Positions 6,519 to 62,866 of a DNA stretch of 64,000 nucleotides are shown here, piece after piece. The stretch spans positions 248,001-312,000 of the forward strand of contig NZ_CP127832.1 in NCBI RefSeq assembly GCF_030389495.1, in the 5' to 3' direction. The notes beneath the pieces are model-generated. The model did no database searches, was not told the origin of the DNA, and worked only from the letters and a program-made list of their open reading frames with translations. Each line of letters opens with the position of its first letter. The first letter of the stretch is position 1. Both the position numbers and the translations under genes were made by a program. This DNA comes from Ligilactobacillus cholophilus. GTDB lineage: Bacteria; Bacillota; Bacilli; Lactobacillales; Lactobacillaceae.

Positions 6519-6592
6519 GCACCCATAGCGCAACTGGATAGAGTGTCTGACTACGAATCAGAAGGTTGTAGGTTCGACTCCTACTGGGTGCA
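6519..6592 (+). tRNA. tRNA-Arg(ACG)
   Basis: 74 nt; acceptor GCACCCA/TGGGTGC, anticodon loop CTACGAA. After A-to-I editing this tRNA would read the CGC codon that I take as the specifier of the argS T-box at the right end of the window. Confidence 0.95.
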
Positions 6593-10343: not shown

Positions 10344-10371
10344 TCTAGTTAATATTTAACGTGGAAAAGGA

Positions 10372-10602
10372 TTAGTAGAATAGTTGGTACCTTATTTCAG
10401 AGAGGGCATGTTCGGTGAAAATGTCTAGGGAGATTATTCGAACTCACCTTTATTTTATCTTTATTTGAAATTTTTTAGAGTAGGATAAAGCGTGTTAGAT
10501 CGTTATCTCTAATTAAGTGCTGATTTTAGAGTCAGAAAATAGGTGGTACCGCGATTTTTTCGTCCTATTCAAGTTTTTATACTTGGATAGGATTTTTTTT
10601 AC
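10372..10602 (+). promoter_or_regulatory. T-box leader (Leu) of leuS
   Basis: Stem I elements AGAGAGGG are followed by the specifier CTC (10443-10445) in the context GAACTCACC. The T-box AGGTGGTACCGCG is at 10541-10553. The terminator hairpin formed by GTCCTATTCAAG and CTTGGATAGGAT is followed by eight T's. Uncharged tRNA-Leu pairing at the specifier and at the T-box would favour the antiterminator and raise LeuRS when leucine is short. Confidence 0.93.
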
Positions 10603-25122: not shown

Positions 25123-25513
25123 AGAAGATATTGAATATGAAATTGAAGAATGGAATCAAATTAATCCTGAGGAATCAGAAAAAATAATTGTTGAAGCACT
25201 AAAAAATGCAATAGGTGCACAAGCATCAAATAAATGGAAATATGCAAGATCGGTTCTAAATTCATGGAAAGAGAAAAATATCAAATCATTATCAGATATA
25301 GAAGCAGATGATATTGAGCATCGAAAAAAGATGGAACTTAAATATGGAAAAAAGAAAAGCTATATGAGAAAGCCAAGAGAAGAAAAGATGCCATATTGGT
25401 TTGATGATAAAAATAATAATCAAGTTGAAAAAGATCAAGAGAGTAAAAAAGAAACTAGAGCTGAAATAAATAAGCTAATGGAAAAAATAAATGGAGATGA
25501 TAACAATGGATAA
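25070..25513 (+). CDS. Replication initiator, C-terminal DnaD-like part
   Basis: About 135 useful residues beginning at NIGFLAPTLREDIEYEIEEW, with the later KWKYARSVLNSWKEKNI, the conserved DnaD-domain end (YxxxIL-xW). It has no ribosome site of its own, so it is made only if the ribosome or polymerase slips in the A8 tract, or it is a remnant. It ends with a Lys/Glu-rich tail. Confidence 0.75.
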   Translation: MLLTSMKKNIGFLAPTLREDIEYEIEEWNQINPEESEKIIVEALKNAIGAQASNKWKYARSVLNSWKEKNIKSLSDIEADDIEHRKKMELKYGKKKSYMRKPREEKMPYWFDDKNNNQVEKDQESKKETRAEINKLMEKINGDDNNG

Positions 25514-25748
25514 ACTTGATATTTCAATGATAGATATAGAAAACGCTAAAGCAAATGATGATAAGTATGGCTTGGTTTGTGAACTGTTTTCAATGGCAGA
25601 AGCATGCGTTGGTCAAGCGTGTGAAATAGTTAAGAGTGAAATAACTAAAAAGAATACAAAAATGGAGTTTAAGGAAATGGCAAAAGATTTGAAGAAGTTG
25701 CTTAAAGAAACTGGAGATTTTGCAACCGATCATATATTATATTACTAA
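25506..25748 (+). CDS. Small phage protein, unknown
   Basis: 80 residues from the ATG at 25506, chosen for GGAG nine bases upstream. Acidic N-terminus, helical middle (LVCELFSMAEACVGQAC), Lys-rich end. No family recognised. Its stop codon overlaps the start of the structured RNA region. Confidence 0.65.
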   Translation: MDKLDISMIDIENAKANDDKYGLVCELFSMAEACVGQACEIVKSEITKKNTKMEFKEMAKDLKKLLKETGDFATDHILYY

Positions 25749-26270
25749 TCTAGTACGGTTAAGGCGGTTCAACTCCGCCACTAGATTTTGCCAGACTGCC
25801 AACTGGCTTTACTATTAACAAATTATTTCTCCTTAGAATGTTTAATTGGTAAATATAATAGCACGGTTAAAATTTGGCAGAGTCTAGACAGAGTGTTTAA
25901 TCAGCGTGCAAGTCGCTGACTAGGCTTTAGGTTTAGGCACCTCTCTCAATCTTTCGTGTGGTTTGGAAACGGCAAATTTAATACAGGAAGAAGGAAACGC
26001 CTTTATTTATTATGTATATCACTATTTAACACACACGATCACCAAAATATTTATCCATTACTTCAATATTTAATTTTCAACTATCCAATTTTCAAAGGTT
26101 GGATAGTCATAGCTCCCTTAATGGACTTAGAGAGCAGGTATTACAACAACCTTGATTAGATGTTTACGGTAAGTTATGGGATGTACGACCGACATTCATA
26201 CAGGCTTGATGATTTTCGCAGGTCATCAAGTCATAGCAGCTGCGAAAAATAAATTGAAAGAAGAAAAATA
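25749..26270 (+). ncRNA. Large structured RNA region, ROOL/GOLLD-like candidate
   Basis: 522 bases without a credible gene. Helices read directly: AATCTAGT/ACTAGATT enclosing GGCGG-TTCAACT-CCGCC; AGACTGCCAA (25793-25802) with TTGGCAGAGTCT (25874-25885, two-base bulge); AGTCTAG/CTAGGCT enclosing TCAGCG/CGCTGA; TCGTGTG (25954-25960) with CACACGA (26032-26038); ACTATCCAA/TTGGATAGT (26080-26107); and a 3' pseudoknot (26205-26248). The phrase ACGGTTAA occurs twice. A TATAAT at 25854-25859 could be a -10. Giant RNAs ROOL (about 580 nt) and GOLLD are known from Lactobacillales prophages in gene-free stretches of this size; class assignment is inference. Confidence 0.6.
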
Positions 26271-26528
26271 ATGAAAAGTAAAAAGACAACAATCAGAATT
26301 GATGATACTTATCGAGTTGAAGTTGACAGTTATAATTACACATTAATTAAACATGTCCCTGAAACTAAAATACATGATGTTATGATTGGATACTATCCAA
26401 GTTTACACCACGCTTTAGTTGGTTTAAAAAGACAAAAATTAGCAACGGAATTAACCGAATTAACGATTGATGAATATATTGATAAATTACGTAAGTTAGA
26501 AGATTGGGTATCAATAAAGGAGAAGTGA
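26271..26528 (+). CDS. Small phage protein, unknown
   Basis: 85 residues, starting just after the structured RNA with AAAGAAG upstream. It opens with strand-like alternation (TTIRIDDTYRVEVDSYNYTL) and ends in a helix. No function recognised. Confidence 0.65.
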   Translation: MKSKKTTIRIDDTYRVEVDSYNYTLIKHVPETKIHDVMIGYYPSLHHALVGLKRQKLATELTELTIDEYIDKLRKLEDWVSIKEK

Positions 26529-26946: not shown

Positions 26947-27009
26947 ACGCCACAAAGGCGCTTCCTAAAATCAAATGCATAAATATTATAACATAAGGAA
27001 GTGCATAGC

Positions 27010-27477
27010 GTGGATGGAGCAAAATTAACAGCATTATTTGAATATGATGATGAACAAACTGCTAAAAACGTAAATAATTTTTTTAAGGCTTTTAAGAGAA
27101 TTAGTCGAATGGCTGGGGAAGATCCATCGGCGCTCAAATCTCCAGTTATTACAGATACGCCTGTTAGTCATGATGGTGGAAACCATAATGAAGATAAATT
27201 AGTAGAACATATAAATGCAACAGATTTAGCACCGAAGATTATGAGTGATGTCAGATTTGCATTAAATCATATTTCTCAACGTTCAAAAATGATTATTCTG
27301 GGTGTATATGTAGATGAATTATCACAAGTAATAATGGCAGAAAAATTACAATGCTGTAAAAGCTCATATAAAATTTATAAGAAAGTAGCATTGAATGAGT
27401 TTGCAGATTCTCTTAGTTCTAAGAAAACAATATTACAATTAGATTTGCATAAAGAAAATGGAAAGGAACTAGTCTAA
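27010..27477 (+). CDS. ArpU-family late transcription regulator
   Basis: 155 residues from GTG 27010, placed 8 bases after AAGGAAG; a GTG at 27001 is less well spaced. It has the sigma-like C-terminal helix-turn-helix of the ArpU/RinA group (SQRSKMIILGVYVDEL, SSYKIYKKVALNEFA). Such proteins switch on the packaging and structural genes that follow. The stop lies within a terminator stem. Confidence 0.82.
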   Translation: MDGAKLTALFEYDDEQTAKNVNNFFKAFKRISRMAGEDPSALKSPVITDTPVSHDGGNHNEDKLVEHINATDLAPKIMSDVRFALNHISQRSKMIILGVYVDELSQVIMAEKLQCCKSSYKIYKKVALNEFADSLSSKKTILQLDLHKENGKELV

Positions 27478-28150: not shown

Positions 28151-28441
28151 TTGAAAATGGAAAATGTAATTGCAACAAGTTCAAACGAATTTCGTAAGAA
28201 CTTTAAAAAATATTCAGACGATGTTGTTGATTACCAAGATGCCGTAATTGTAACTCGTCCTAAAAATAGAAACGTAGTCGTTATTTCAGAAGATGAATAC
28301 AATTCTTTACGAGAAACAGCATATTTATTAGAAAATAAAGAAAATCGTGAATTTTTACGTGAATCAATGAGCCAACTTAAAGAAGGTGATGTTAAGGTAT
28401 TAACTCCTGATGATTGGGAGAATTTAAAGAATGAGGAATAA
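28151..28441 (+). CDS. yefM: Antitoxin, YefM/Phd family
   Basis: 96 residues from a TTG 6 bases after GGAG; the ATG at 28157 is the alternative. The N-terminal Phd/YefM DNA-binding fold (SNEFRKNFKKYSDDVVDYQD, VVVISEDEYNSLRETAYLL) is followed by an acidic tail that would wrap the toxin. It represses its own promoter at the TGTACA sites and neutralises YoeB, encoded 9 bases downstream. Confidence 0.92.
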   Translation: MKMENVIATSSNEFRKNFKKYSDDVVDYQDAVIVTRPKNRNVVVISEDEYNSLRETAYLLENKENREFLRESMSQLKEGDVKVLTPDDWENLKNEE

Positions 28442-28450
28442 GAATGACAT

Positions 28451-28714
28451 ATGAAATTAAATGTGGAATTTACCGCTAATGCTTGGGGACAAATGTCTGA
28501 AATTATTCAAACAGATAAGAGAATGATGAAACAAGTCATTAAATTAATTGATGATACTATGAGAAATCCTTTTAGCGGGTTAGGGAAGCCTGAGCCATTA
28601 AGAATGGATTTACAAGGTTTCTGGTCAAAACGAGTTGATAAGAAAAATAGAATGGTATATCGAGTAACAGATAAATCAATTCAAATTATCGTACTTAAAG
28701 GTCATTATAAATAA
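28451..28714 (+). CDS. yoeB: Toxin, YoeB-type ribosome-dependent mRNA endonuclease
   Basis: 87 residues, the usual YoeB length. RelE-type fold with the family ends GLGKPEPL, FWSKRVDKKNRMVYRV and the C-terminal GHYK; the Glu, Arg, His and Tyr of the active site are all present. It cuts mRNA in the ribosomal A site when the antitoxin is lost, which may keep the prophage in the population. Confidence 0.93.
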   Translation: MKLNVEFTANAWGQMSEIIQTDKRMMKQVIKLIDDTMRNPFSGLGKPEPLRMDLQGFWSKRVDKKNRMVYRVTDKSIQIIVLKGHYK

Positions 28715-39804: not shown

Positions 39805-42800
39805 ATGTCAACAGTTGTCGAAAAAGAATTTGTTTGGCGGTTTGTTGATGAAGTAACAGCTGGTTTAAGACAAGCACAATCAGTTATGGAACAAACTTTA
39901 TCAGTTTTTCGTTCTGCTGGTTCGATTGCCAACGAAAGTACTAGTGGATTAGAAAATTTTGGTGATTCTGCTAAAGAAATGTCAGAAAAAATCAAAAATT
40001 CAACGAATGATTGTAAAGAAGATATTAATAAAATCAAAAAGTCAGTTGATGATCTTCCTAAAAATAAAACTACTAAAATTGATACAAAAGCTAATACAGA
40101 AGGTATTAATAAAGCTAAAGAAGAAATCAATAAGATTCCTTCTAAGAAAACAACAACATTAAATTCTAAAGCTGATACAAATGATGCTAAGAAATTCAAT
40201 AATGAGATTAAACTAACGCCTAAGCAACGGATAACTAAATTGTTAGCAAATGCTAAAACTAGCGTTATCAATTCGTTCAAACGGTCAATCGACGATGTAC
40301 CTAAAAAACATACAACAGATTTAGATGCTAATCCAACTGGAGAAAGTAAGATTAAATCATTTGGTGAAACTTTAAAAGGTACAGCATTAGGAATGGGCGT
40401 TTATAATGCAGCAATGAAAGTTGGTTCTGAAGTATCTAATGAATTTGCTGGAGCAATTAGTCGTTATGATACGTTGAACAATTACCCCAAAGTACTTAAA
40501 TCTATGGGAGCAAGTGCTAATGATGCTAATACTTCAATGAAAACTTTAAAAAATGGTGTTGATGGCTTACCTACATCACTTGATTCAGTAGCAAAAGCTT
40601 CACAGAGATTTTTACCAATGAGTAAAAATGCTAATGATGCTGCTAAATCAGCTTTAGCTTTAAATGATGCCTTTCTTGCTAGTGGTGCTAGTTCAGAAGA
40701 TGCAAGCCGTGGCTTGGAACAATATACACAAATGTTGAGTTCAGGAAAAGTTGACCTTGAGTCATGGAAAACACTTGAAGAAACTATGCCTGCTTCCTTA
40801 AAGAAAGTTTCTGAATCTTTTGGTATTGCAGGTGGTTCAGCACAAGGCTTATATCAAAAATTGCAAAGTGGTCAAATATCAGTTAAACAATTAAATCAAC
40901 GTTTTCAAGAATTAGATAAAGGAACAAAAGGTTTTCACGAAACTGCTAAAAGTGCAACTGGTGGAATTGGTACAGCTTTTGAAAATATGGGTAATCGAAT
41001 GAAAGCCGCAATTCAAGAAGCTATGGGCGGATTTGATAAATTTGTTCAAAAATTAACAGGAAAGTCAATTGCTAGAAATATTAATGATTTAACATCTAAG
41101 TTCTCTGAGTTTGGTAAAAAAGCTGGAGAAGCATTATCCTCTTTAGGAGATTATCTGAAACCATTAACACCTGCATTTCAAGCTTTAGGTTTAATTATCG
41201 GCACTGTATTTAAAAGTGCAGTTAAGCCAATTCAAGATATCGCTAAAGCTTTAGGAGATATGTTTAAAAATGTAAAAGATAGTAAAGCTTTTGATGATAT
41301 TTCTAAGTCTTTGCAAGGAATTGCAAAAAATAAGACTGCACTTGAAGGTATTGGTAAAGCAGTTACTACTATGATTGCAGCATTTGCTGGTGCGAAAGCT
41401 CTCAGTTCAACATTCACAATGATTTCTAAAGGTATTGGCGTATTTATGACCTTGGGTAAAGCGATTAGCAATATTAAAAGTTTTGCAGGAGCTTTATCAA
41501 TTTTGCAATTTGGATTAAAAGGTCTAGTTTCTGCTTTAGGTGGTATTCCTGGAGTTATTGCAATTGTTGTTGGTGCATTTGTAACTTTATATAATGTTAA
41601 TCCAAAATTCAAAAAGTTCATTGATGACATTGTAAAAAATGTAAAGGATTTTGCCAAAAATTTCGTAAATGGTTTTAAAACCGCTTTTGATAATGTTAGC
41701 AAATTTTTCAAAGGCGATTTAGGATGGCAAAAAGCTTTAGAGAAAAATTTGAGTAAGATAGGTAATTCTATTAGTAAAGCTGTAAAACCATGGATTAAAC
41801 CTATTCAAAATTGTTTTTCTGACATTGGAAAAATAATTAGTAAAGATGTAGTGGTGTGGGAAAAGAATATTGATAAATTTGTTAAAAGTGTAACTAAATT
41901 CTTTTCTTCTTTAGGAAAAGATATTTCTTCTGTTTGGAATACAATTACTAAAAATATTGATAAAGGAATTAAAGGAATTCAAAAAGTAATTAATCCAGTA
42001 TTAAATACTATTTCTAAGGAATGGAATAAAGTATGGAATGGCTTAGCAAATACTATTTCTAATGTGATGAAAAATATATCTAAATTTGTTACACAACATA
42101 TGGGTAATATTAAGGATATTATTAACTCTGGTGTAAAGATAATAAAAACTATTTGGGATACTATTTGGAAGCAAATTGAAAATGTATTCAAATTAGTTTG
42201 GGATTCAATTTTTCATACATCAAAAGTGATTCACGATATTAGAAACATTATTGATACACAAATCAAGGCCATTCAAACAATTTGGAAGAATGCTTGGAAT
42301 ATTATAAAAAATTACTTTGAAATGGTTTGGGATGCAATTAAGGATATTGCTAATTCTGCTATTAATGGCGTTAAGAATGTTATTTCTAATGTTGTGAAAA
42401 GCATTCAAAGTGTTTGGAATAATATTTGGAATGCAATCAAGGACTTTTTTGGCGGAATCTGGGATGGAATTAAAACAGCTGCTAAAAATTATGTTGAGGC
42501 AGTTCATGATGCTATTAAGGGTACTTTAGATAAAATCAGCGATACTTGGCATTCTATGTGGCAAGGATTAAGTGATTTCTTTGGTGGCATTTGGGATAAT
42601 ATTAAAAAATTTGCTCAAGATGGTATTAATGGCATATTGAAGGTTATTAATGCTGGTATTGATGGAATTGATGCAGTTTGGAAATTCTTTACTGGTCACG
42701 AAACTAGCATTCATCATTTAAAGCCTGTTAAATTTGCTCAAGGTGGTATTGTTGAAAGAAGTTTATCAATGGTTAATGATGGTGCTGGTTCAAACTGGAA

Positions 42801-62665: not shown

Positions 62666-62689
62666 TGGACTTATTCAATGATAGAAACT

Positions 62690-62866
62690 AGTAAATTTGG
62701 AAATATTGCAGCGAGTTCGGGATGGTGCAAGCCGAATATAGGAACAAATTGAATCGCACTTCTTAGAATAATTAGTTGAATATTAAAGTGGATTACTTTT
62801 TAATCAATTAGAGTGGTACCGCGGGTTAACTCGTCTCTTACATTTTATATGTAAGAGATTTTTTTA
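62690..62866 (+). promoter_or_regulatory. T-box leader (Arg) of argS
   Basis: Specifier CGC (62755-62757) in GAATCGCAC, T-box GAGTGGTACCGCGG (62811-62824), terminator TCTCTTACAT/ATGTAAGAGA with T's. Uncharged tRNA-Arg would prevent termination and raise ArgRS. Confidence 0.9.

Follow-up and report, generated by a model that had tools for sequence, protein, structure and literature searches.

What occupies the gap without a called gene in this prophage, and is it one of the giant phage RNAs already known? A sequence-only reading of the window (the whole 64-kb stretch of DNA analysed; all coordinates are window positions) had placed a large structured RNA, a member or relative of ROOL or GOLLD, at 25749-26270. 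Coding content, folding, homologues and known RNA families were accordingly analyzed for this gap.

Gene-free gap and folding

The gap is flanked by RecT, exonuclease and DnaD-like genes on its upstream side. Downstream come a small ORF of replication-initiation type, the gene of a phrog_248 transcriptional activator (27001-27477), and terminase and portal genes. In the list of ORFs of at least 40 aa, the upstream ORF stops at 25748 (TAA) and the next ORF starts at 26271. Two plus-strand ORFs of 43 and 67 aa lie fully within the gap, and a 42-aa ORF on the opposite strand reaches into its 3' end. The 67-aa ORF had no Pfam match, and tblastn against three homologous gaps gave only chance-level matches (best E 0.17); no intact ORF was conserved at the same place in related phages across these three gaps. 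The claim that 25749-26270 is gene-free was thus borne out by ORF calling, which found no credible gene. The gap is real, but its bounds required a small correction, as the element starts one base earlier, at 25748, and its last conserved piece ends at approximately 26243.

Folding of 25746-26250 gave -130.8 kcal/mol on the plus strand (z -4.22), with 0 of 100 shuffles equally good, versus z -2.04 and 2 of 100 shuffles on the minus strand. The 9- and 10-bp helices named in the sequence-only reading were both present (H1 and H2, Table 1). The proposal of a large structured prophage RNA is backed by these fold statistics and by the homologues and predicted covariation described below, and the presence of a structured RNA at the gap is almost certain. 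Its size is about 500 nt in the window and about 400-1350 nt in relatives.

The suggested promoter was not retained: the TATAAT at 25854 has no counterpart in the homologous stretch of L007 or L008. A promoter scan of 25400-26400 gave 9-of-12 matches at best, of which 9 were found against 4.6 expected. Since no conserved promoter was found, we infer that the RNA is made within the operon transcript. Two terminator-like hits (0.3 expected) in the same interval correspond to the T1 T-arm and hairpin P2.

Table 1. Predicted parts of the RNA, 5' to 3', in window coordinates.
Feature	Position	Strand	Pieces	Remarks
T1, armless-tRNA module	25748-25786	+	acceptor ATCTAGT/ACTAGAT (7 bp); linker ACGGTTAA; T-stem GGCGG/CCGCC; T-loop TTCAACT	55 bits with model R1, itself built with T1; first base is the last base of the upstream stop codon
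P2 hairpin	25790-25807	+	GCCAG/CTGGC	found in 6 of 6 5' domains; also terminator-like
PK1, 5' strand (P2 loop)	25796-25802	+	CTGCCAA	loop complement search
PK1, 3' strand	25874-25880	+	TTGGCAG	one base 5' of T2
T2, armless-tRNA module	25882-25925	+	acceptor GTCTAGA/ACTAGGC (6 of 7 pairs); linker CAGAGTGTTTAAT; T-stem CAGCG/CGCTG; T-loop TGCAAGT	43.9 bits with R1, itself built with T2
Purine-rich hairpin (putative)	25990-26004	+	GAAGGAAACGCCTTT	from reading; similar pieces in L007 and L008
H1, 9-bp hairpin	26080-26107	+	conserved-type loop TTTTCAAAGG	
Small hairpin 3' of H1 (putative)	26112-26135	+	GCTC/GAGC	resembles post-H hairpins of L004 and L007
Small hairpin 5' of H2 (putative)	26180-26196	+	GATGT/ACATT	from reading
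H2, 10-bp hairpin	26203-26232	+	loop TTTTCGCAGG, then ATAG	
3' palindrome (putative)	26236-26243	+	GCAGCTGC	counterpart palindromes in relatives; last conserved piece, then AAATAAA and the next start codon

Armless-tRNA modules

Each module consists of a 7-bp acceptor stem, a D-loop-like linker, a 5-bp T-stem and a 7-nt T-loop. A strict scan for this anatomy found T1 and T2 in the gap and likewise two modules each in L007 and L008, whereas the aviarius and faecavium RNAs had three apiece. Its two hits in the rest of the window were a genuine tRNA at 6543 and a match at 42380 attributed to chance; the background was 0.6 hits per 64 kb in dinucleotide shuffles, and a looser scan gave 2 hits in 624 kb of reversed, uncomplemented loci. 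An encoded CCA followed none of the modules examined. Over 12 instances (11 distinct), 95.5% of cells were paired versus 70% after shuffling, a percentage that is partly circular because the scan itself demands stem pairing; slid-structure controls gave 33-42%. Double-sided changes occurred in 9 of the 12 module pairs versus 6.1 in shuffles (5 of 500 shuffles as high), and further pair types were not above chance (15 versus 13.0; 84 of 500 as high).

The tRNA elbow is reported to be held by the contacts G18:Psi55 and G19:C56 (excerpt of PMC4810234). Among 18 module instances, which, like the module counts, are not independent because many are identical or positional homologues, U55 in the T-loop went with GG in the linker in 10 of 10 cases, and G55 went with AG and no GG in 8 of 8. 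The AG was one base off its usual linker place in three T2 modules of the window species, all among the eight with G55, and the GG was one base off in L089. As judged from sequence comparison, the covariation of linker and T-loop is that of the elbow contacts, with a D-loop-like partner that co-varies at 18/55 while 19/56 stays constant. Five of the 18 instances (L086, L087 twice, L089 and T1 of L106) were found with a covariance model, which cannot impose this correlation because unpaired positions are scored one by one. Moreover, T1 changes its elbow state among positional homologues (window and L106 versus L004 and L003). In ten further module rows, GG accompanied U55 in 9 of 9, and the single G55 row has both AG and GG.

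5' domain, pseudoknot and H hairpins

Six 5' domains, including that of the window and two that are 97% alike, keep T1, P2 and the candidate pseudoknot PK1. In all six, the P2 loop is complementary to the bases next to T2 on its 5' side, and the sequences of P2 and PK1 change yet still pair. The PK1 strand pairs were CTGCCAA/TTGGCAG, TCTGCCAT/ATGGCAGA and CTGTCAGA/TCTGACAG. These pairs were sought in each sequence separately because the MAFFT alignments A1, A3 and A4 misplace P2; the script required a P2 stem of at least 4 bp and found loop complements of 7-10 nt. As a control, a 7-nt complement was present in 7 of 910 windows of the present sequence (W) and 8 of 1028 windows of L007, all at the PK1 target, and the L004 loop complements other places too (42 of 1747 windows). 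The position of the modules is constant with respect to PK1 and, for several relatives, with respect to the RNA ends as well.

A pattern for the H hairpins with free stem arms was found in 34 IMG/VR contigs and in 4 of 26 genus genomes, and its reversed control gave no hit in these 26 genomes. A related, slightly stricter pattern hit the window genome only among 395 genomes of the order. The pattern places no constraint on the arms. Among the 18 distinct arm pairs, 17 form at least 4 of their 5 possible base pairs, and 94.4% of arm positions were paired versus 64.5% after reshuffling (maximum 80%). L058, whose arms pair at 3 of 5 positions, was discarded as a chance pattern hit.

Homologues and possible cassette exchange

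A DNA search found two further copies in a genome of the same species, G009, one on contig C8 and one across contigs C19 and C7, which were counted together in view of an overlap of their ends seen by eye. One copy each was found in G006 (putative Ligilactobacillus aviarius) and G013 (putative Ca. L. faecavium), and a model search added L106, another locus of G013. Divergent loci in G014, G018 and G023 had weak E-values (0.015-0.26) and were accepted on context, namely two modules 119 nt apart in G014 and a palindrome 3' of the module in G018 and G023; a family-wide run with stricter filters did not report these modules. Searches of the gap DNA against phage and plasmid collections gave chance-level matches only, protein searches of both flanking ORFs in phages gave no match, and a first exact pattern gave none in viral contigs.

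When model R1 was applied to 397 family genomes, nine had matches with E up to 0.05. Four belong to the genus, and five belong to three other Lactobacillaceae genera (E 1.4e-4 to 5e-3), the latter resting on context because approximately two would be expected by chance from E-values alone. Three modules were found in L118 and two each in L119 and L120. A phrog_248 activator gene lies near the modules in all three loci, with one ORF between in L119, and a true tRNA lies near those of L118 and L120. At 1431-1810 of L119, further tRNA-like pieces were seen by eye that ARAGORN missed, one of them with a small D-arm-like hairpin.

Several candidates were rejected. L005 and L014-L019 matched weakly in the DNA search, over short stretches and with E of about 1e-4 to 1e-3, L005 being located in coding sequence, and the pattern hit L116 (G035) seems to sit in coding sequence. 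Seven hits with E 0.25-0.6 covered model positions 11-32 only, that is, the T-arm alone, and were dropped (G016, G008, G011, G001, G018, G019 and G023).

In the Ligilactobacillus phage relatives, the RNA is approximately 0.4 to 1.35 kb long. In the window, L007, L008 and L004, its start coincides with the upstream stop codon; for the window and L007, its end lies immediately 5' of the start codon of the following ORF. Sequence comparison showed that the RNA stretch is accompanied by different flanking genes in different copies. The 400-nt upstream flank of L008 has 94.8% identity to the window, but to L007 only 73.6%, the level of five shuffled baselines (72-74%). The 5' RNA domain of L008, in contrast, matches L007 at 97.4% and the window at 92.0%. 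Conversely, the last 200 nt of the L006 RNA are 96.0% like L007 and 84.9% like the window, and past the start codon the preference is reversed (L007, 75.6%; window, 91.0%; all identities ignore gaps). These switches suggest that the RNA is exchanged as a cassette. At approximately 9340-9401 of L109, the first part of a T1 acceptor seems to be joined directly to the 3' half of a terminal T-module with its TTATCCGGATAA, which would fit a deletion of the intervening RNA by recombination between two T-modules. Because the L109 phage thus seems to have lost most of the RNA, the RNA is apparently not needed in every phage.

Salivarius-type regions and salivarius-1

The H hairpin was also found within a gene-free region in named L. 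salivarius plasmids (L032 and L033) and IMG/VR contigs of the same type; a search of the salivarius-type region against phages gave no match. In a cmscan of five salivarius-type contigs, four (L025, L026, L028 and L030) contained salivarius-1 (RF03030) at or above the gathering cut-off; L029 is cut off by the contig end. The motif lies approximately 220 nt 3' of H in L025, L028 and L030 and approximately 640 nt in L026. No Rfam match was found for the approximately 360 nt that precede the motif and contain the H hairpin shared with the window.

Both end anchors, the 3' one being a salivarius-1-like motif, were found in 18 distinct regions of 35 H-bearing loci, and 17 of these (all but L043) formed alignment A5. 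RNAalifold predicted 68 pairs, 14 with changes on both sides, at -61.6 kcal; 40 column shuffles averaged -14.6±4.2, and the reverse complement reached -27.1. The shuffles gave 2.7 double-changed pairs (maximum 6), and the reverse complement gave 13. In this model, salivarius-1 looks like the 3' end of a structured region of approximately 420 nt.

RF03030 has a 7-bp closing stem on which one hairpin stacks directly, and a 4-bp hairpin takes the place of the D-arm; in these respects it resembles the modules, and by eye, T2 of L106 also has a D-arm-like hairpin. Its location, the 3' end of salivarius-type regions, is one that a T-module occupies in other relatives. However, it is only 56 nt long, its T-arm-like loop is not a T-loop, and RF03030 is absent from the window and its genome. 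Salivarius-1 may be a diverged member of the module family. A palindrome (TTATACCGGTATA or TAGCTAGCTA) follows it in 18 of 18 regions, all selected by the motif. The 3'-terminal T-modules of L010, L086, L089 and L106 are followed by TTATCCGGATAA, as are L107-L111, which were found with a pattern that includes it; TTATCCGGATAA is absent after the G014 modules.

The salivarius-1 motif reportedly comes from Weinberg 2017. Its structure is given as PDB 9G4Q in the excerpted PMC12776560, and no role for it is described among the literature matches listed. The gap RNA family would give this solved structure a larger context.

Two side observations were made. Genome G024 has eight salivarius-1 hits in total, with three tandem elements within 500 nt at each of two places (C5:9061-9551 and C17:10344-10797; tandem loci L073, L075 and L077-L080). 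In eight H loci (L039, L042, L046, L049, L052, L053, L057 and L060), H seems to lie directly 3' of a coding ORF end, and the usual 5' part of the salivarius-type region is missing.

Comparative folding of long and short types

For the long type (L004, L003 and L106; 1149-1347 nt), the consensus fold was -239 versus -138±8 for 12 shuffles, with 34 double-changed pairs versus 15 (maximum 23); the reverse complement gave -203 and 33 double-changed pairs. The window aligned with L007 gave -63.8 versus -27.7±3.6 for 30 shuffles and -42.0 for the reverse complement, but its double-changed pairs were not above the shuffles (8 versus 9.4), partly because MAFFT pairs wrong hairpins. In comparative folding, proposed earlier as a check, double-changed pairs exceeded the shuffles in the long and salivarius types but were almost as many on the reverse complements, and between the window and L007 they stayed at shuffle level.

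Possible function and relation to known RNAs

The gap RNA is probably a modular, structured and autonomous non-coding RNA of the phage, placed in the operon between the replication genes and the late regulator and terminase. It would be made as part of the operon transcript. RNase P could then cleave it where T1 begins, a position that coincides exactly with the upstream stop codon, and in RNAs with a terminal T-module the 3' end could be trimmed by RNase Z or by an exonuclease. The excised RNA might act in trans as a compact scaffold and might dimerise via the 3' palindrome; cleavage, trimming and scaffold function are the least certain steps. The elbow is described as a recognition site of RNase P and RNase Z in tRNA (excerpt of PMC4810234). 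Because the modules have an elbow-like acceptor and T-arm and T1 starts exactly at the stop codon, it is suggested that T-modules define the RNA ends. Processing of the tRNA type is nevertheless possible rather than probable, and RNase P would be expected to cleave internal T-modules as well if these are not shielded. Cleavage by RNase P and RNase Z at named bases and dimerisation of the palindrome offer direct tests.

The main alternative is a cis-acting operon element, that is, a terminator or antitermination site, an mRNA-processing or stability spacer, or a ribosome block between early and late genes. The RNA lies on the coding strand inside the operon and, in the window and L007, extends from the upstream stop codon to just before the next start codon. 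Its T1 T-arm and P2 are terminator-like (2 hits versus 0.3 expected), and the phrog_248 activator is located approximately 750 bp downstream of the RNA in the window and close to the modules in L118-L120. However, the RNA stays while flanking genes differ, its length varies about threefold, and it carries several modules. A cis element is thus considered unlikely, and a trans-acting unit is probably the better description.

The autonomous RNA has also to be weighed against a ROOL- or GOLLD-type RNA beyond the reach of Rfam with the same nanocage fold. ROOL is reported to form an octameric RNA nanocage, ROOL and GOLLD are reported near tRNA genes, some GOLLDs have tRNAs in a linker, and the function of such large phage RNAs is stated to be not known (excerpt of PMC12286853). 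The gap RNA shares with ROOL the length and structure of a Lactobacillales phage RNA, with GOLLD the long phage RNA, and in L118 and L120 the nearness of real tRNA genes. However, cmscan of the whole window at gathering scores gave no match at the gap, and 25500-26500 with E up to 10 gave only a chance snoRNA match (E 6.2). The claim of ROOL membership was not supported, as RF03087 stayed below the gathering cut-off in the window and the homologues scanned. This silence is informative because the ROOL model scored 118-243 bits in 5 of 26 Ligilactobacillus genomes. Moreover, L022, the sole ROOL locus examined closely, looks stand-alone, with its own promoter-like and terminator-like sequences, whereas the gap RNA sits inside an operon and has T-modules. 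The GOLLD model (RF02032) had no match in the window or homologues, although it was positive in none of 26 genus and 121 family genomes, controls included, which makes this negative weaker, and the tRNA-like parts here have no anticodons. A diverged ROOL or GOLLD is considered very improbable, and the gap RNA looks like a separate lineage with readable parts: elbow modules with a co-varying tertiary contact, a candidate pseudoknot and repeated hairpins. The expectation that an RNA outside Rfam would be new holds for the window branch, which matches no class, but not wholly for the related branch, which carries salivarius-1 near its 3' end. No description of the gap RNA was found among the literature matches listed, some seen as excerpts.

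The modules share with tRNA and the tRNA-like domain of tmRNA the 7-bp acceptor and 5-bp T-stem, a TTCRANY-type T-loop and the GG linker. Sub-threshold matches to the tmRNA 3' end fell on the T1 T-arm of L002, L007 and L008 (E 0.39). In contrast to tRNA, the modules have no anticodon arm and, apart from T2 of L106 by eye, no D-stem; neither ARAGORN nor the Rfam tRNA model found a cloverleaf with an anticodon arm at 25748-25925. Decaying phage tRNA genes that lost the D and anticodon arms, accompanied by chance hairpins, would explain the elbow, the 7+5 geometry and the tRNA genes near L118 and L120, but double changes keep the stems, linker and T-loop co-vary, and module places are fixed relative to PK1 and, in several relatives, the RNA ends, which makes decay highly improbable. 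Equally improbable is a conserved structured spacer for phage recombination with no RNA function: sharp flanking-gene swaps and the likely deletion in L109 agree with it, but the plus strand folds more strongly and the covariation is of a tertiary type.

A broader form of the preferred reading, possible though somewhat less likely than not, is a new class of large phage RNAs built on the tRNA elbow and spread over several Lactobacillaceae genera. In such a class, several modules without anticodon would set the ends and fold of an RNA of 0.4-1.35 kb, host tRNA enzymes would excise it from the phage operon transcript, terminal palindromes would assemble it, and salivarius-1 would be an end module.

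Two other features of the window were recorded. A YefM/YoeB-type toxin-antitoxin pair (28151-28714) lies between the prophage late regulator and terminase, and two T-box leaders are present at 10352-10570 and 62669-62841.
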